From positions 1 to 25,111 of the IMG/VR virus record IMGVR_UViG_3300007734_000964: DNA of 25,111 nt; one strand, written 5' to 3'. This stretch comes from a virus. Of this stretch, positions 2 through 9,194 are shown one piece after another. The notes under the pieces were generated by a model, which did not search any database, was not told the origin of the DNA, and worked only from the letters and a program-made list of their open reading frames with translations. Numbering within the stretch: the stretch's first letter is position 1; each line of letters opens with the position of its first letter. Made by a program: the position numbers and the translations under genes.

Positions 2-985
2 AGAGAGTTTGGTGAACTATTTGGAAACAAGAATGTCTCGCTTCTTAATAGCGGAACTTCTGCGCTAACATTAGCATACAAGCTTGCAAATCTTGATCGT
101 GATACAGAAATCATTACTACACCTATGACGTGCATGGCAACAAATGAACCTGCGCATCTAACAGGCGCAAAGCTTGTTTTTGCTGATGTTGATCCTACAA
201 CGGGCAATATTGATCCCGAGTCTGTTAAGAAGCGTCTCACTAAGAAGACAAGGGCAGTCGTCGGTGTACACTGGGCGGGCCAGCCATTTGATATAAAGAC
301 AATAACAGATATTGTTAAAGATTACAATCCCTCAATTAGCGTGATCGAAGATGCGGCACATGCACTCGGTGCTTCTTATATGGGTAAGCCTATCGGAATG
401 CACAGCGACTTTGTGTGTTTCTCATTTCAGGCAATCAAACACCTCACGACTGTTGACGGAGGTGCAATCTGCTCACTTAGGCCAGAAGATGATGCTAGAA
501 TCAAGCGACTCAGGTGGTTTGGCCTTGATAGAAAATATCCGGGATCGCGATGGGAACAAGACATTACTGAAGCAGGCTACAAGTTTCACATGAATAATGT
601 CAATGCGATGATTGGTCTTGAGCAGATGAAGTATGTGAATGATATTGTAGCAGCACACAAGAAGAATGGCATGTTCTTTGATAAACACATCAAGAATAAT
701 AAGCTCACAAAACTCAGAAGAGACCCCAATGCAGAATCTGCTTATTGGATCTACACGATTCTTGCAGATGATCGTGATGATTTTAAGATATATCTCCATG
801 AGCATGGGATTGCATCAGATGTCGTCCATGTCAGGAATGATCGATATACTGTGTTTGATCAATACAGGCAAGATGATCTTGTGGGAACAGAAGAATTTTG
901 CAGCAAAATGATTAATATTCCAGTTGGTTTCTGGCTTACTAATGATGATCTAGCAAAGATCGTGAGTGTAGTCAATGCTTATTGA
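2..985 (+). CDS. DegT/DnrJ/EryC1/StrS-family PLP aminotransferase, 5' end missing
   Basis: The frame is open from the left edge, so the N-terminus lies outside the window; the first in-frame ATG at 125 is internal, because the residues before it (NSGTSALTLAYKLA) are the conserved PLP-phosphate loop of this family. The PLP-ring aspartate is in VIEDAAHALGASY, and the Schiff-base lysine is in FSFQAIKHLTTVDGG (codon 437-439). Members transfer an amino group from glutamate to a keto sugar nucleotide (for example PseC or LegC in nonulosonic acid pathways, or viosamine/perosamine synthases). About 327 residues are visible against a usual 360-400. The next gene is an acetyltransferase, the usual partner that acylates the new amine, and NeuB/NeuA homologues follow further down. 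The family is sure; the exact sugar is not. Confidence 0.93.
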   Translation, partial: REFGELFGNKNVSLLNSGTSALTLAYKLANLDRDTEIITTPMTCMATNEPAHLTGAKLVFADVDPTTGNIDPESVKKRLTKKTRAVVGVHWAGQPFDIKTITDIVKDYNPSISVIEDAAHALGASYMGKPIGMHSDFVCFSFQAIKHLTTVDGGAICSLRPEDDARIKRLRWFGLDRKYPGSRWEQDITEAGYKFHMNNVNAMIGLEQMKYVNDIVAAHKKNGMFFDKHIKNNKLTKLRRDPNAESAYWIYTILADDRDDFKIYLHEHGIASDVVHVRNDRYTVFDQYRQDDLVGTEEFCSKMINIPVGFWLTNDDLAKIVSVVNAY

Positions 986-1021
986 ATGCTATATTGATCA
1001 ATTTTAGAATTATGGTGAATT

Positions 1022-1480
1022 ATGACAATGACATTATTAGAGATGAAAGAAGTTGATCTTTCATTTGTGAATGAGACCAGAAATGATAGTTCGACTAGGC
1101 GTTATCTACGCAATAACAAGCTGATTTCACTAGATGAGACCTATACGTGGTTTCGAACAAGCTCACCCAAATGGTTCATCATTAATGTTGATGATCAAAA
1201 AGTTGGGTATCTTAGGACGAGTCACGATACCGGTGAAACAATCTGTTGCGGATGCGATATACATCCTGCACATCGTGGCAAGGGACACTCAAAGAATGCT
1301 TACAATCTTCTAATGGAAGATCTCTATTCCCGAGGTTATATTTTAATCTGGCTTGAGGTCTTTAGGGATAATGTGATTGCTTACAATCTGTACAAGAAAT
1401 TAGGTTTCATCGAGGCAGGTCCTACTAAGAGGAACATTGATAAAAGGCCGTGTGTCACTATGGTTCATAAGGTGATTTAA
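1022..1480 (+). CDS. GNAT-family N-acetyltransferase, probably acting on an amino sugar
   Basis: A 152-residue protein of ordinary GNAT size. The acetyl-CoA pyrophosphate loop is seen as HPAHRGKGHS (residues 81-90, R-x-x-G-x-G type), and the C-terminal motif B as NVIAYNLYKKLGF (117-129). In function it would transfer acetyl from acetyl-CoA to an amine. Lying 36 bases after a sugar aminotransferase, it most likely acetylates the 4-amino sugar nucleotide, as PseH does in pseudaminic acid synthesis; that role is inferred from context. A start six bases later (1028) is also possible, and the GGTGA at 1014-1018 is better spaced (9 bases) for that start than for 1022 (3 bases). The gene ends just before the AT-rich segment holding a candidate late promoter. 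Confidence 0.85.
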   Translation: MTMTLLEMKEVDLSFVNETRNDSSTRRYLRNNKLISLDETYTWFRTSSPKWFIINVDDQKVGYLRTSHDTGETICCGCDIHPAHRGKGHSKNAYNLLMEDLYSRGYILIWLEVFRDNVIAYNLYKKLGFIEAGPTKRNIDKRPCVTMVHKVI

Positions 1481-2283: not shown

Positions 2284-2908
2284 TGAGCTGGTATTCCCAT
2301 GGTATATCAAGAATCTACCGGAGAATGCAAAACGCATAGCAATCTTAGGCAGCACTGCAGCCTCATTTGTGCATCAGAAATATCCAAATGCAGAAATAAA
2401 TCTGTATGATATTCAGCTAGGCAATTGGGACATTAATGCCGATGTATGGAATATTGAAGAGTGCTCTTTCGATCTTGTTGTCATTACAAGATGCGCATAT
2501 TTTTCAAAAGATCCTGCGCGCCTTATTGAGAAATCATTAAGTCTGTTAAGAAAGATGGGTATTTTATTTGTAGACTGGGGAATGGGCGATCATTGGAGAT
2601 TTAAGAATTACAAGGTAGGCTGGATTAAGGATGGTGAACATGAATTTGCCTATCATGAAGATAATTTTTTATGGTCTACTGTGTGGTCTCATGACTTGTT
2701 GTCACATACACAAGTTCAAATTTTTGCTGAGAGAATTAAAAAATACGGCTATTCGTGTATTGAATCAGCAATCAATACTGAATTTCCCAGGGTTTTTAAT
2801 ATTGACAACAAAGATATGCTAATAAAAGTTGATGCATTAGCATTGTGGGAAGAGAATCCACAGCTTTATATTCTTACAATATTTCAGCAGAAAGCAGGCA
2901 AAGATTAA
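2270..2908 (+). CDS. Putative class I SAM-dependent methyltransferase
   Basis: A 212-residue protein with a Rossmann methyltransferase layout. A degenerate glycine motif I (IAILGSTAASF, residues 23-33) is followed by an acidic residue at the end of strand 2 (LYDIQ, D47), then strand 4 FDLVVITRCAYF (67-78) and a helix-turn resembling the standard segment after it (LLRKMGILFVDWG). Motif I lacks the usual GxGxG, so assignment rests on the overall pattern. The start overlaps the preceding glycosyltransferase by 14 bases and the stop shares one base with the next start. Within this cassette a sugar or glycan O-/N-methyltransferase is the natural guess; substrate unknown. Confidence 0.6.
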   Translation: MGKSNELVFPWYIKNLPENAKRIAILGSTAASFVHQKYPNAEINLYDIQLGNWDINADVWNIEECSFDLVVITRCAYFSKDPARLIEKSLSLLRKMGILFVDWGMGDHWRFKNYKVGWIKDGEHEFAYHEDNFLWSTVWSHDLLSHTQVQIFAERIKKYGYSCIESAINTEFPRVFNIDNKDMLIKVDALALWEENPQLYILTIFQQKAGKD

Positions 2909-4062
2909 TGAAAAACAAGCTTGGAATCGTAGCAGGAGATCTTTTTTGGAGTAGCATTCCATATGATTCTCTTAATGTTCAATTAGCTTTCAATAAAGTA
3001 ACCAATACTGACATCATCATGTTTAAGGATGATATCAGGCTAAACAAGAAATTTACAGGAAAAGAAAAGTTCTCATTTGATAAAAGCTTATTTGTGAATA
3101 ATAATCGCTTAGTAGTCATCAAAGACTGGAGTGAGCTGATCAAACTGTCAAATGACTATGATTTTTTAATTTCAAGTGCCAAGATTGCACCCAAAACAAG
3201 ATACCCACATAGCATGTTTAAACAGCTTAAATGTCCAATCGGTGCATGGGATGTTGGAGGTGCTGATATTTTAACTTATACCGAACACTACAACTTTGTT
3301 TTATTGAAAGGTCATATATGGAAAACGTGGATGCAGAAAATTCATCCAAATTGTTTCTCATATGTAGCAGGAACACCGCATTATGACTATTATTACAAAG
3401 ATTTTTCCGGGTTTGGCAAGATAGATGATGCTGATGTTTTTAACAAAAAGTACAAAATAGACGCAAATAAAAAGAAGATCTTAATTGCACCGTCTAACCC
3501 ACAGTCACACTCAGCACAATTTAAGGAAAATCTTTCAAATTTAGAGAAGCTATCAAAAATCTCACAACTCTTAGGATATGAGCTACTCGTTAAGACATAT
3601 CCGCATGATTATGTCTTTAGTGAAAATGACAATCACTACTCAGGAATATACAGAAGATCTAGTCTTCTATCACCAAATAAACCACAATATGAATATCTTT
3701 CTAACACATTTCCAAATCTTAGGGTACTAGAAAGTCAAGATCATTTCACTGCAATGAAGAATGTAGATTACGTCTTCAACATGTCAGGAAGTCATATAGC
3801 ATGGGAAACATTCTTGACTAATGCAATAAGCTTTTCCATGAATTATGAGAAACAGCCGTATTTTAATCGCCCTAAGTATTTACCAGATTATGTTAAATTT
3901 CCAGATGACATCATCAATGTAGAAATTGACGATATTGAAAAAATTAAATCAATAACAGCACAAGACGTTGATAAGAAAAGTCTTAATATGTTGATATTGC
4001 AAGACAAATTTGAAAATCAAGTAAAGCACATAGTAGAATACATTTACAACCTCAGGAAATAA
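2908..4062 (+). CDS. Putative GT-B-like glycosyl/glycerophosphate transferase
   Basis: The start was taken at ATG 2908, which overlaps the previous stop by one base (TAATG), because the 21 residues of open frame before it are a shadow of the upstream gene. The 384-residue product has two alpha/beta halves. The C-terminal half starts near KKKILIAPSNPQSHSAQF and contains a surface loop plus FNMSGSHIAWETFL around residue 290, which resembles the donor-binding region of GT-B enzymes and CDP-glycerol glycerophosphotransferase-like capsule proteins. Membrane segments are not evident. It is the largest enzyme of the cassette and likely adds a capsule- or LPS-like building block; the precise family could not be settled by eye. 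Confidence 0.55.
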   Translation: MKNKLGIVAGDLFWSSIPYDSLNVQLAFNKVTNTDIIMFKDDIRLNKKFTGKEKFSFDKSLFVNNNRLVVIKDWSELIKLSNDYDFLISSAKIAPKTRYPHSMFKQLKCPIGAWDVGGADILTYTEHYNFVLLKGHIWKTWMQKIHPNCFSYVAGTPHYDYYYKDFSGFGKIDDADVFNKKYKIDANKKKILIAPSNPQSHSAQFKENLSNLEKLSKISQLLGYELLVKTYPHDYVFSENDNHYSGIYRRSSLLSPNKPQYEYLSNTFPNLRVLESQDHFTAMKNVDYVFNMSGSHIAWETFLTNAISFSMNYEKQPYFNRPKYLPDYVKFPDDIINVEIDDIEKIKSITAQDVDKKSLNMLILQDKFENQVKHIVEYIYNLRK

Positions 4063-4065
4063 TAA

Positions 4066-4776
4066 ATGGGAAATCAAAGTTTGCTAGGTGTTTCATTTGA
4101 CATAAAAACAAGAAAGTCAATTGCTGACGAAGTAAGTAGATTATTTCAAAAAAATGACGAAGATTATAAGATCCTTGTTGTAGGATCTCCAAATGCATGG
4201 GAAATTAGAGATATTGATCCAGCTATTGCATCTAGGACTAAGATCGTGTGTGTAGATCTGGATAATATGACAAATTTTATCGAGACTGCGAGAAACTTTT
4301 TAGATAGTGAATACTACGCTGGAAACTTCTTCAATTTTAATCATAACTACAAGTTTGATTTGATTATCAACAGGTGGCATTTTCATCATCTAACCACACA
4401 GCAGAAAAAAGACTTTTACAGAAAGAGTCAAACGCATTTAAAGACAAATGGACATGTTATTACAGTTGATTATTTCTTCAATAGATTCGATAATTTTGAA
4501 GAAAAGATTAAAGCAGGATTAGAGCATATCAGGTATAGAAAAGTCAACGCCGATCCTCCATTTGATGATCCAGCAGATGAAGAATTAATAACACAGATTC
4601 AAAATTGTGATATTGATGATCATCGAGGAGGAAAAATGGACTCTGTAGAAAATGTCTTAAAATACGCAGAAGAATCTCATTTTATCAATGAATGTAAATT
4701 AACGTATGACTCATTATCCTATGACAGGCCTGATCTATGGGGCCAGTATATGATCACTTCGAGGAAAAATGATTAA
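4066..4776 (+). CDS. Putative class I SAM-dependent methyltransferase
   Basis: A 236-residue protein. Motif I region ILVVGSPNAWEI (36-47), acidic strand-2 end CVDLD (D64), and strand-4 FDLIINRWHFHHL (97-109), followed by KTNGHVITVDYFF, match the Rossmann methyltransferase order. The FHHL segment is typical of methyltransferases of the Methyltransf_11/12/23 type. The start is three bases after the preceding stop, with AGGA at 4054-4057 about 8 bases upstream as ribosome binding site. It is the second of three small methyltransferases spread through the glycan cassette and overlaps the NeuB-like gene by 8 bases, so it is probably translated with it. The substrate is unknown. Confidence 0.7.
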   Translation: MGNQSLLGVSFDIKTRKSIADEVSRLFQKNDEDYKILVVGSPNAWEIRDIDPAIASRTKIVCVDLDNMTNFIETARNFLDSEYYAGNFFNFNHNYKFDLIINRWHFHHLTTQQKKDFYRKSQTHLKTNGHVITVDYFFNRFDNFEEKIKAGLEHIRYRKVNADPPFDDPADEELITQIQNCDIDDHRGGKMDSVENVLKYAEESHFINECKLTYDSLSYDRPDLWGQYMITSRKND

Positions 4777-5482
4777 ATTGATTTCTGAGATTGGCATCAA
4801 TTTCAATGGTGATTTTCGTCTCATAGAAGAAATGATAAGACAATCATCTGTAGGCAAAGCAGATCTTGTAAAATTTCAACTCTATTCTTCACAAAGAGTA
4901 TTTGGCGATGATTCGCGAAAAAAGAATGAGTTTACATACGATCAAGTCAAAATGATTAAGCAAATTTGTGATGCTTATAGAATAGATTTTTTTGCTTCTG
5001 TTTTTGATGAAGAACGCTTAGATTGGTGCCTAGATTTAGGTGTTGATTATTTTAAGATAGCAAGTCGAACTATTGCTCGTGAATCTGGCTTAGCTGCAAA
5101 GATAGCACATGCAGGTAAAAAGACATACATTTCATTAGGTCAATGGCGAGAAAAAGCGTTGCCACTTTTTGACCTAGAGAATGTTTCATATTTTAATTGC
5201 ATCTCAAAATACCCAGTAAGCCTTTTTGATATAAAAGAAAGTATAGGATGGAAATATACTAATAGAGTTGTGGGCTTAAGTGATCACAGCTATGGTATCG
5301 CAAATTGTCTACATCATATTTCACTTGGTGCGAATATTATAGAAAAACATTTCACTCTTTGCAAGTCTTCATTGGGAAACGACCATGTCGGATCTATGAC
5401 TCTTGATGAACTTAAAGTTCTTAGAGAACTTGGAGACCAACTTGCTATCATAAGAGATTTAACAATATTGACTGCTAAATAA
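4769..5482 (+). CDS. neuB-like: NeuB-type N-acetylneuraminate/nonulosonate synthase, catalytic barrel only
   Basis: NeuB/PseI/LegI enzymes condense phosphoenolpyruvate with an N-acyl hexosamine to form a nine-carbon nonulosonic acid. The TIM-barrel markers are in order: ISEIGINFNG (5-14), VKFQLY (34-39), FFASVFDEE (74-82), DYFKIAS (93-99), ISLGQW (121-126), YPVSLFDI (148-155), VGLSDHSYG (168-176) and EKHFTL (192-197). The two metal-binding histidines of the family are kept (H173 and H194). Two things are odd. The protein stops at 237 residues where typical NeuB has about 340-350, so the C-terminal SAF/antifreeze-like domain is absent. The usual GxNHxG is GINFNG, with Phe in place of His at residue 12. 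The gene overlaps the upstream methyltransferase by 8 bases. The family is certain; substrate may differ from standard NeuB. Confidence 0.88.
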   Translation: MIKLISEIGINFNGDFRLIEEMIRQSSVGKADLVKFQLYSSQRVFGDDSRKKNEFTYDQVKMIKQICDAYRIDFFASVFDEERLDWCLDLGVDYFKIASRTIARESGLAAKIAHAGKKTYISLGQWREKALPLFDLENVSYFNCISKYPVSLFDIKESIGWKYTNRVVGLSDHSYGIANCLHHISLGANIIEKHFTLCKSSLGNDHVGSMTLDELKVLRELGDQLAIIRDLTILTAK

Positions 5483-5498
5483 GCATAGTAGAAATAAC

Positions 5499-6071
5499 AT
5501 GAAGCGCCCGCAAGAGTATATAACTGGAATTGAATACTGGTCTAATCCTGATTTACAACAGAACGGCAAGAAAGACTATCTAAATGATGTTATTCGTCGC
5601 CGATATTATGAAGAAATTATTAAAAGTCTTTATGAAATCTTTGACAAAGAAGATACATTTACACTTCATGAGCTTGGATGCGGCTGGGGCACAAATCTAG
5701 GTGCAATCAATGCTGCTTTTCCTAATGCAAAAATTTCTGCTAATGATATCTGGAAAGATGCGATAGATTATGTGCAGACAAACAGACCTTATGTCGATAT
5801 CATAGAGATGGATACGTTTGATTTTATCAAAATGAAAATTACATCAAATGTTGTTTATGACGTAATAATCACAAATGCGCATCTTATTCACTTCAAAGAT
5901 GAAAGTTTGGAAGAGATCAAGAATTTGCATAAAATATGCAAATATGCCGTTATTCAAGAGAATATAAGCGGCTTAGAAAAAGTCGTGCTTTCTATGGAAA
6001 GCAAAGTACGACACATGGATAACATGCCCGACTCAGATTATCAATATCTTTTCAAGAGAGAAAGTATATGA
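5499..6071 (+). CDS. Class I SAM-dependent methyltransferase
   Basis: A 190-residue protein with a clear motif [12 protein letters not shown] (residues 56-66), an acidic motif II region (ISANDIW), and strand-4 sequence [14 protein letters not shown] typical of class I methyltransferases. It is the clearest of the three methyltransferases in the cassette. It sits between the NeuB-like and NeuA-like genes and its last four bases overlap the NeuA-like start (ATGA arrangement), so the product may act on the same sugar or on the glycan carrying it. Methylation of nonulosonic acids or terminal sugars is known in bacterial surface glycans; here it is inference. Confidence 0.8.
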
Positions 6072-6778
6072 ATGTCTTAGGCGTAACGCTCGCGCGTGGT
6101 GGTTCAAAAGGAATACCACGCAAGAATATTAAAGATGTATTTGACAAACCTTTAATTGCACATACGATAGATGCAGCCTTGAAAAGCAATATCTTCAAAT
6201 CATATATTGTAAGTACTGATTCGCAAGAAATTGCAGATATCGCAGCCAGATTTGGAGCGAAAATACCGTTTCTTAGGCCTGCTGAATTGTCAGGTGACAC
6301 TGTATGGTCGCGAGACGCTTTACGTCATGCCGTGCTTGAGTGTGAGAGGATCTATGAAACAAGATATGATTTTGTTATAGAGCTTCCTTGTGTTTCACCT
6401 CTGCGTAATGAGCGTCATATTAAAGAAGCTTATGATAAATTACTAAATACAGGTGCAGACTCAGTCATCTCAGTTTGCAAAATGCAAGATAAGCACCCCG
6501 TTAGAATGAAGAGAATTATCGATGATACAATACATGATTTCTGCAAAGAATTTCCTGAGGGTGAAGGTTCTAGAAGACAAGACCTAGAACCCTGCTATAT
6601 CAGGAATGGTGCAATCTATGCTATGACTAGAGATTGCATTGTTGAAAAATTTTCTAGAAATGGTCTTGTATCTCGCCCGTATGTCATGGATGAGCTAGAA
6701 TCAGTTAATATAGACTCATACATTGATCTAAAACTAGCAGATTTGCTGTTAAGAGAAAAAAATGAAAATAAGGATTGA
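6068..6778 (+). CDS. neuA-like: NeuA-type CMP-nonulosonic acid (acylneuraminate) cytidylyltransferase
   Basis: NeuA/PseF/LegF enzymes use CTP to activate a nonulosonic acid as CMP-sugar for glycosyltransferases. The nucleotide-binding loop [14 protein letters not shown] (residues 8-21) is intact, as are [10 protein letters not shown] (68-77), the ELPCVSPLR segment (105-113, the LqpTSPLR equivalent), [18 protein letters not shown] (169-186) and the acidic C-terminal NIDSYIDL (214-221) that carries metal-binding aspartate. Length 236 fits the single-domain family. It overlaps the gene before by 4 bases and the gene after by 17 bases, so it sits inside a tightly coupled unit. The family is sure; the sugar accepted (Neu, Pse, Leg, Kdn or other) is open. 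Confidence 0.92.
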
Positions 6779-7670
6779 TTGTCCTCTAAATTTTTTAAGT
6801 TCTTCTGAAATAGATGAAATTCTTTTAAACCGAGGAATGATTTTAGAACAGCATGATCCAGAATCTATTATTGTCAATCCTGGCACTGACAAGTTTTTAG
6901 GTGAAGATTATTTTTCTGAATTCAAAAATTTGAAGAATGTCGCATCGCCATCAACAGGAACAAATCATATTGATCTTTCTTTTTTGTCTAGCAAAGGAGT
7001 AAAGACTTACTGTCTGCTTGACGATAAGGCCTCATTAAAAAATATACACGCATCAGCAGAATTTACGTGGATTCATATTATGAATCTTCAGCGGAAATTT
7101 ATAAATGCGACAAGGTCTGTTGATCAATGGAGATCAGATAAGAATGAATCAAACTTAAGATCATATGAGCTTTTTAATAAGTCAATTGGCATTGTTGGAA
7201 TGGGTAGAATCGGTAATAAAATAGCAAAATATGCAAGTGCTTTTGGATTACGCATTTTTTACTATGATCCCTATGTAATAGCATCAGAAACATCCTCGGA
7301 AAGAGTAGATTCATTAGAATCTCTAGCAAAATGCGATATTATATCAATAAACTGTGCGCTCAATGACGAAACAAGAAATATTGTGAATTTTGGCGTTTGG
7401 GATGAACTTAAAGCAGGATCTATTGTTGTGAATACATCACGTGGCGAAGTAGTAAATGAAGATTACATTGTCCATCTTGTTGAAAGAAACCAAATAATGT
7501 TTGGTGCCGATGTTTTGCACAATGAACAAAATATCAGCAAGTTAAAAGAATCACCTTTGTATAAATTGTCAAAGATGTGCGATAGAGTTGTCTTGACGCC
7601 GCACGTCGCCGGCGCTACAAAAGAAAGTCAAACTAAGGCACTCGTTGCTGTCCTAGACTTAATAAGGTAA
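6762..7670 (+). CDS. D-isomer-specific 2-hydroxyacid dehydrogenase (SerA-like)
   Basis: A 302-residue NAD-dependent oxidoreductase. The dinucleotide-binding motif is GIVGMGRIG (residues 143-151), with the acidic NAD-ribose residue following in YYDP. The catalytic triad of the family is visible: Arg227 in NTSRGEVV, a glutamate near 255 (LHNEQ) and His281 in TPHVAG. These enzymes interconvert 2-keto acids and D-2-hydroxy acids, the best known being phosphoglycerate dehydrogenase. No ACT or other regulatory domain follows, so it is the short form. A 17-base overlap with the cytidylyltransferase ties its translation to sugar activation, suggesting that its substrate belongs to the glycan pathway and not to serine synthesis; that link is inference. 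Confidence 0.88.
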
Positions 7671-7675
7671 GAGTA

Positions 7676-8359
7676 ATGGAAAAAATAACAATAGGCATTT
7701 GTTGTTATAAACAAAAAAAATGGCTTTATAGATGTCTTAGAAGTCTTGCATCACAACAACACATTGACTTTCATGATATTGAAGTAATTGTAGTAAACGA
7801 TGAACCAGGAACAGAACCAGAAATTGATGAGATTACTAAACGATTAGATGATGTTCTTAATATAAAAGTAATCCACAATGAAAAGAACATAGGCTTACCG
7901 TCTTCACTGAATAAGATACTCAAGCAAGCAAGAGGCAGATACTTTGTAAGAGTTGATGCAGATGATTATGTTTCTAGTCATTTCATTCATTATCTTGTAA
8001 CTTTCTTAGAGTTGTCTAGAAACTATCAAGCTGTTGCATGTGATTACAAAAAAGTCAATAATGCAGGTAGCATTATCGAATATCATGTTGATTCACAGAA
8101 AAACCCAATAGCATGTGGTATTATGTTTACGTACGAAGCACTTTGCGAAGTTGGCCTGTATAATGAAGAATTCAAGATGAGAGAAGGCCATGAACTCCTC
8201 AATCGATTTAGACAGACATTTTCTATCTTTAATTTACCTGTACCGCTCTATCGTTATAGAATTCACAATGAAAATAGATCACTGACTGATTCTAGTGTCG
8301 ATCTATACGATAAGAAGCTCGAGAATCTAATCAAAAATAAGGATAACAATAATGAATAA
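7676..8359 (+). CDS. Family 2 glycosyltransferase
   Basis: A 227-residue GT-A enzyme. The N-terminal TIGICCYKQKKWLYRCLRSL and VIVVNDEPG match the GT2 start. The nucleotide-sugar/metal motif VRVDADDYV (D94-A95-D96) is intact, and the aromatic/His-rich YRYRIHNENRS near the end is a frequent feature of small GT2 proteins. It is soluble, without membrane helices. It lies 5 bases after the dehydrogenase and overlaps the next gene by 8 bases. It should add one sugar to a glycan or protein acceptor using a nucleotide-sugar donor, possibly one supplied by the neighbouring genes. Confidence 0.9.
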   Translation: MEKITIGICCYKQKKWLYRCLRSLASQQHIDFHDIEVIVVNDEPGTEPEIDEITKRLDDVLNIKVIHNEKNIGLPSSLNKILKQARGRYFVRVDADDYVSSHFIHYLVTFLELSRNYQAVACDYKKVNNAGSIIEYHVDSQKNPIACGIMFTYEALCEVGLYNEEFKMREGHELLNRFRQTFSIFNLPVPLYRYRIHNENRSLTDSSVDLYDKKLENLIKNKDNNNE

Positions 8360-9194
8360 TATTGGTGTAATTGGCAATGGTTTCGTAGGTTCTGCAACTG
8401 TGGCAGGATTTTCATTGCATGCAAATGTGAGAGTCTATGATGAGAATCCAAAGGCATCAATCAACACATTCGAAGAGACAATCAATGAGTCTGAGTTTGT
8501 TTTTGTCTGTGTTCCTACACCAATGTCACTTGAGACCGGTAAGATTGACCTCTCAATTATTGAGAGTGTATTTGATAGAGCCTCTAAAGTTAATAAACGC
8601 GATGACAATATCTTTATTATTAAGTCAACAGTGATTCCTGGGTCCGTAGAAAAGTTAGTAAAGTCTTATCCAGGCCTTAACATCGTCTTTAGCCCAGAAT
8701 TCTTGACTGAGCGAAATGCGAAGCTTGACTTTATTAATGCATCGAGGATCATCATCGGCGGTCAGGATGAGATTGTCAATAGAGTTGAGTTAATGTTTCG
8801 TGAGAGATTTCCACACACCCCTATTATTAAAACTGATGTAACTACTGCACAATTCATCAAATACATGAGCAATTGCTTCTTTGCAACAAAAGTCGCATTT
8901 ATGAACGAAATGAAGCAAGCAGCTGATGTGTCTGGTGTTGATTGGCGGGTTGCTGTAAATGGTTTCCTTCTAGACGGACGCATTGGAAATTCACACATTG
9001 ATGTTCCAGGGCACGATGGTATGATGGGATTTGGCGGTAAGTGTTTTCCAAAAGACATCAATGCATTTATCAATTACTTTGATGAGATTGGAATAGATGC
9101 AAAGATCATGAAAGCAGCCTGGGATAAAAATATCGAAGTCAGGTCAAAGCATGACTGGCTGGATATCAAGGGAGCAGTTACAAGAAAATCTTAG
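8352..9194 (+). CDS. UDP-glucose/GDP-mannose dehydrogenase family protein, short form
   Basis: These enzymes oxidise the C6 alcohol of a nucleotide sugar to a uronic acid with two NAD+. The NAD-binding GVIGNGFVGSA (residues 5-15), the strand VFVCVPTPM (50-58), the central domain FIKYMSNCFFATKVAFMNEM (168-187, catalytic lysine 170) and the catalytic cysteine loop GFGGKCFPKD (226-235, Cys231) are all present. At 280 residues it lacks most of the third, UDP-sugar-binding domain of the usual 380-450 residue enzyme. Similar short forms are seen in phages, so this is probably a natural variant rather than a broken gene. It may make UDP-glucuronate or a related uronate for the glycan. It is the last gene of the cassette before a short hairpin-bearing gap. 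Confidence 0.88.
   Translation: MNNIGVIGNGFVGSATVAGFSLHANVRVYDENPKASINTFEETINESEFVFVCVPTPMSLETGKIDLSIIESVFDRASKVNKRDDNIFIIKSTVIPGSVEKLVKSYPGLNIVFSPEFLTERNAKLDFINASRIIIGGQDEIVNRVELMFRERFPHTPIIKTDVTTAQFIKYMSNCFFATKVAFMNEMKQAADVSGVDWRVAVNGFLLDGRIGNSHIDVPGHDGMMGFGGKCFPKDINAFINYFDEIGIDAKIMKAAWDKNIEVRSKHDWLDIKGAVTRKS

Follow-up and report, generated by a model that had tools for sequence, protein, structure and literature searches.

Can an enzyme of the N-acetylneuraminate synthase (NeuB) family work without its C-terminal SAF domain, and if so, on what sugar? In Neisseria meningitidis NeuB (Nme, the family's best-studied member and our reference for residue numbering), Arg314 from the SAF domain of the partner subunit is reported to position the C2 N-acetyl group and to be essential, the R314A variant being inactive (PMC6795526). 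The window analyzed here, a whole uncultivated viral contig of 25,111 bp whose downstream genes match baseplate wedge proteins, encodes a NeuB homologue that has no SAF domain (Table 1). The frame runs from an ATG to a TAA, and the next gene starts at 5499.

Table 1. Features of the SAF-less NeuB and of neighbouring genes in the window.
Feature	Position	Strand	Basis
Probable GT-B-fold glycosyltransferase, 405 aa	2845..4062	+	low-confidence model; no Pfam match; conserved in 4 loci, always ahead of NeuB
SAF-less NeuB (class A), 237 aa, full (beta/alpha)8 barrel	4769..5482	+	ORF, Pfam match, alignment, model
EIGINFNG loop, residues 7-14; H12F private; E7 (Nme Glu25) kept	4787..4810	+	alignment, codon comparison
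FASVFDEERLDW, residues 75-86; class-A hallmarks R83 (R/K 40/40) and W86 (40/40)	4991..5026	+	class comparison
KIASRT, residues 96-101; K96 = Nme Lys129, R100 at C2-specificity position, T101 for Glu/Asp	5054..5071	+	alignment
H173, metal ligand (Nme His215)	5285..5287	+	alignment, conservation
H194, metal ligand (Nme His236)	5348..5350	+	alignment, conservation
SAM methyltransferase; TIGR03587 (methylase associated with pseudaminic acid) matches weakly	5499..6071	+	profile search
NeuA/PseF-like CMP-sugar synthetase	6068..6778	+	profile search, synteny
D-2-hydroxyacid dehydrogenase, in 13/13 window-subclade loci	6762..7670	+	profile search, synteny
Family 2 glycosyltransferase, conserved module	7676..8359	+	synteny
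UDP-sugar-dehydrogenase-like, catalytic-Cys motif GFGGKCFPKD, without C-terminal UDP-binding domain	8352..9194	+	motif, synteny

NeuB (PF03102) is the sole Pfam family matched by the protein, over residues 23-219 (E 4.8e-33; 115.1 bits versus a cut-off of 22.1). The SAF profile (PF08666) has no match in it, nor do KDO8P/DAHP synthase profiles such as PF00793, and one of 64 relatives gives a weak DAHP_synth_1 match. Scores fall well below the equivalog cut-offs for N-acetylneuraminate synthase (TIGR03569, 117.3 versus 399.65 bits) and pseudaminate synthase (TIGR03586, 89 versus 340.25 bits). An earlier note on this DNA had read the protein as a barrel with its motifs and both metal histidines kept, stopping before the SAF domain, and the Pfam search, the alignment and the structure prediction it called for bear this out: the AlphaFold2 model is a complete eight-strand (beta/alpha)8 barrel (pLDDT 95.5). 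Among PDB folds, Leptospira 6ncs (285 residues) comes closest, followed by Nme NeuB and PseI and, after these, by KDO8P/DAHP synthases. The PEP side of the site is retained along with the metal site, as Lys35, Gln37, Lys96, Ser171 and Glu192 align with Nme Lys53, Gln55, Lys129, Ser213 and Glu234. The protein departs from sialic, pseudaminic and legionaminic acid synthases in having no C-terminal SAF domain with its essential arginine, and in carrying Arg at the proposed C2-specificity position, where Neu and Leg synthases have Gly and Pse synthases have Phe.

An alignment-based search confirmed at least 508 viral NeuB-like loci. The majority kinds among the best 80 of these are both SAF-less: class A, to which the window protein belongs and whose members mostly have 227-257 residues, and class B, of ~276 aa (e.g., L139). 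Class A comprises the window protein plus 35 viral and 4 cellular relatives (n = 40), which form one clade (SH-aLRT 99) in a quick, midpoint-rooted tree built from barrels only; the class-A side of this branch includes one protein with a longer tail (L106, 289 residues). Class B is a separate clade nested within SAF-bearing NeuBs, so on this midpoint-rooted tree the loss of the SAF domain, or the failure to gain it, happened repeatedly, and a single loss shared by all viral NeuBs is rejected. All three kinds can coexist: one viral contig (L110:1313-7727) has a SAF-bearing gene of 342 aa, a class-A gene of 240 aa and a class-B gene of 275 aa. Cellular class-A genes occur in 4 of the 193 genomes in the phylum of a Planctomycetales MAG. 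A marine thaumarchaeal genome (G013, L055:1002-1733) has five NeuB-family genes, two of which are SAF-less short frames of ~233-250 aa. The 508 or more viral loci show NeuB to be common among uncultivated phages, although the genomes of named phages almost never carry it (3 of 50,697 records). Our search of open-access papers for accounts of phage NeuBs, or of a NeuB clade without SAF, yielded only a Leptospira fusion protein.

Is the missing domain genuine? All eight of the nearest viral relatives (58-67% identical) stop at the same point, at 228-239 residues. Because the whole clade shares this SAF-less end, it cannot be put down to faulty assembly or to decay in the recent past, and the frameshift that the earlier note proposed looking for is ruled out. 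That note also asked whether a separate gene might encode the domain. The 25,111-bp window record has none, and of 24 further viral records with class A, up to 476 kb in size, 23 have none either; in the remaining record, a SAF domain is present inside a separate full-length NeuB. In all, no SAF was found in 24 of the 25 class-A viral records searched, which are fragments of uncultivated genomes, may be incomplete and include a few near-duplicates. The evidence that SAF is genuinely missing in class A is strong but not absolute, since a domain encoded on an unsampled part of these genomes or by the host could still be supplied.

Such a supply in trans would involve a mixed dimer, in which a NeuB of the host or a second phage NeuB provides the SAF function. 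Some genomes have candidate partners: L110 also encodes a SAF-bearing NeuB, the L009 genome additionally carries full-length NeuBs, and in L095 a fusion of NeuB, a SAF-like segment and NeuA lies directly downstream of the class-A gene. However, 24 of 25 class-A viral records lack SAF, and the barrel itself is altered at residues 83, 86, 100 and 101, changes that would be needless were SAF borrowed. We regard this arrangement as improbable.

These four residues, which the earlier note had not mentioned, are the informative differences in the alignment of 40 class-A barrels with 85 SAF-bearing ones. Residue 83 is Arg or Lys throughout class A (40/40) and never basic in SAF-bearing NeuBs, where it is mostly Ser (48/85) or Ala (24/85). 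Trp86 is likewise universal in class A versus 1 of 85. Arg100 occurs in 36 of 40 class-A proteins (the other four have V, K, S and S) versus none of the 85, which have Phe (33), Gly (27) or other residues. Position 101 is mostly Thr or Ser in class A and Glu or Asp in 81 of 85 SAF-bearing proteins. All four hallmarks are found together in 36 class-A members and three of them in the other 4; 80 SAF-bearing NeuBs have none, five have exactly one and none has more. Residue 100 is the column in which Gly (Neu, Leg) versus Phe (Pse) is proposed to set the orientation of the C2 N-acetyl group (PMC7371886), with the Phe of PseI KIASF aligning with the Arg of KIASR. Other parts of the site hardly vary: Q37, K96, S171, H173, E192 and H194 are invariant in class A (40/40), and K35 (39/40), Y148 (37/40) and D205 (Nme Asp247; 35/40) nearly so. 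The window gene and class A are a conserved variant inside the known NeuB family.

The earlier note had placed weight on a different change, the GINFNG reading of the GxNHxG loop. The reading is correct, but the His12Phe substitution is not the key change. Every relative in the window subclade reads GINHNG, the window protein alone having undergone the two base changes from CAY to TTC. Across class A, position 12 is His in 30 of 40 proteins, Phe in 4, Trp in 2 and Ser in 2. Phe also occurs in 4 of 85 SAF-bearing NeuBs and recurs sporadically in class B, and the equivalent Nme His30 is missing from the list of ligand-contacting residues (PMC6795526). As a family trait, His12Phe is ruled out.

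A private substitution of this kind, together with the missing SAF domain, might suggest a degenerate, non-catalytic remnant of a host gene. We consider this very improbable given a large, deeply conserved clade that keeps its catalytic residues, a complete barrel in the model, tight synteny with NeuA, and purifying selection (dN ~0.3 versus saturated dS).

The neighbourhood points to a sugar pathway. In 29 of 37 loci, NeuA is no more than three genes away from the class-A gene, and the window subclade has a fixed gene order: NeuB, NeuA/PseF-like, 2-hydroxyacid dehydrogenase, GT2 and short UDP-sugar-dehydrogenase-like, with an occasional extra gene between. In L006 and L097, NeuB and NeuA have a GT29 sialyltransferase-like gene between them. 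The proximity to NeuA and the GT29 genes point to a CMP-activated ulosonic acid that is transferred onto a glycan. Phage GT29 genes occur near SAF-less NeuBs, and mostly near NeuA, at L006:6684-7514 and L143:3537-4277, with homologues in L097, L136, L165 and L166; PF00777 (GT29) was matched in both genes tested, those of L006 and L143. The L095 fusion noted above (L095:5684-7456, 590 aa) takes the place of a lone NeuA directly after the class-A NeuB.

Several other genes have features of their own. In the window and 12 relatives, the D-2-hydroxyacid dehydrogenase has intact GxGRIG and TPHVAGAT motifs and always follows NeuA in the subclade. Homologues of the UDP-sugar-dehydrogenase-like gene occur in L001, L002, L004, L006, L007, L092, L096, L097, L099 and L100. 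Every complete motif-bearing copy has G(F/Y)GG(K/S/H)C(F/L)PKD, ends ~45-52 residues later and has no UDP-binding domain, making this a second module enzyme that is missing its substrate-side domain. The AlphaFold model of the ORF at 2845-4062 (pLDDT 62) resembles GT-B glycosyltransferases, which suggests the fold only. At the left edge of the window (2-1480), a GNAT acetyltransferase and a PseC-like DegT aminotransferase, the latter truncated where the contig stops, are suggestive of an amino-sugar route that extends beyond this edge.

So, what does the enzyme make? The idea that the barrel could accept a different or smaller substrate holds in part. The sequence indicates an altered sugar pocket, as residues 83, 86, 100 and 101 differ from those of known NeuBs, and a smaller substrate is one of two options for it. 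In the other, which we prefer, Arg100, with Arg/Lys83, would replace the partner SAF arginine in cis, so that the substrate could be of the hexose type and of normal size, or could be phosphorylated.

The two basic residues may instead bind a phosphate or carboxylate, so that a phosphorylated or shorter aldose would be converted to an octulosonate-like product or a phosphorylated nonulosonate. Class A has gained these two residues and lost the conserved acid at position 101, and the SAF-less KDO8PS and DAHPS, which take substrates of this kind, rank next after NeuB structurally. In Leptospira, a NulO synthase whose C-terminal domain is endonuclease/phosphatase-like was proposed to act on a phosphorylated sugar (PMC3438082), and a small HAD-like gene occurs in 6 of 37 class-A loci. 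Weighing against such a change of substrate, loci of the window subclade do not regularly have a phosphatase or sugar-phosphate isomerase gene nearby, D205 is mostly kept, and the CMP-transferase of the window is closest to PseF rather than KdsB. On balance, it seems rather unlikely.

We consider it probable that the window gene encodes a working SAF-less, PEP-condensing ulosonic-acid synthase that uses Arg100 in cis for the SAF arginine of a partner and feeds the adjacent CMP-transferase. Such an enzyme would condense PEP with an open-chain aldose at the two-histidine metal site. Arg100, at the C2-specificity position of its own barrel, would stand in for Arg314 of a partner SAF domain, with Trp86 and a second basic residue, Arg/Lys83, as its support on the catalytic face. 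We infer the spatial overlap of Arg100 and Arg314' from alignments and from two papers (PMC7371886, PMC6795526). The adjacent CMP-transferase would then activate the product, and a phage-encoded glycosyltransferase may attach it to a glycan on the virion or host surface.

As a distinct, mostly viral branch with no lid and an arginine in its own pocket, class A hints that these phages may have a variant way of making a surface sugar. Tentatively, it may represent an ‘Arg-type’ specificity class, distinct from the Neu/Leg (Gly) and Pse (Phe) types, that works without a domain-swapped SAF lid and makes an undescribed CMP-activated acidic sugar for uncultivated phages to decorate virions or hosts. 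Given that the SAF arginine is reported as essential in the meningococcal enzyme, a natural SAF-less clade whose different arginine should occupy the same sub-pocket offers a direct test of the role of SAF, and its members, if active as predicted, are minimal catalysts of 230 residues.

How does the window NeuB compare with known systems? It shares with Nme NeuB (1XUU) the barrel fold, two metal histidines, PEP-binding residues and a neighbouring CMP-transferase. It differs in lacking SAF, and thus any equivalent of Nme Arg314 and Phe288, and in having Arg for Gly at the C2 position; class A also has Thr or Ser for Glu134 and Ser for Asn184. That Ser is shared with pseudaminate synthase PseI (Campylobacter jejuni, 8H2C), and the genes next to the window NeuB are closest to PseF and PseC, although with scores below family cut-offs. 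PseI, however, has a SAF domain, and its Pse-type Phe129 is replaced by Arg. Class-B viral NeuBs are also SAF-less and often adjoin NeuA, but belong to a different clade and lack the Arg100/R83/W86 signature. KDO8P/DAHP synthases are similarly SAF-less PEP-condensing (beta/alpha)8 enzymes, yet show only ~10-13% identity to the window protein, which matches the NeuB Pfam family instead. Nearest among solved structures, by both sequence (29% identical) and fold, is a NeuB of Leptospira borgpetersenii (6NCS, a chain of 290 residues); in L. interrogans, the NulO synthase is reported to be fused to a different C-terminal domain (PMC3438082). The 6NCS protein reads KIASC and has no Arg100 but, like the window NeuB, its chain stops soon after the barrel.
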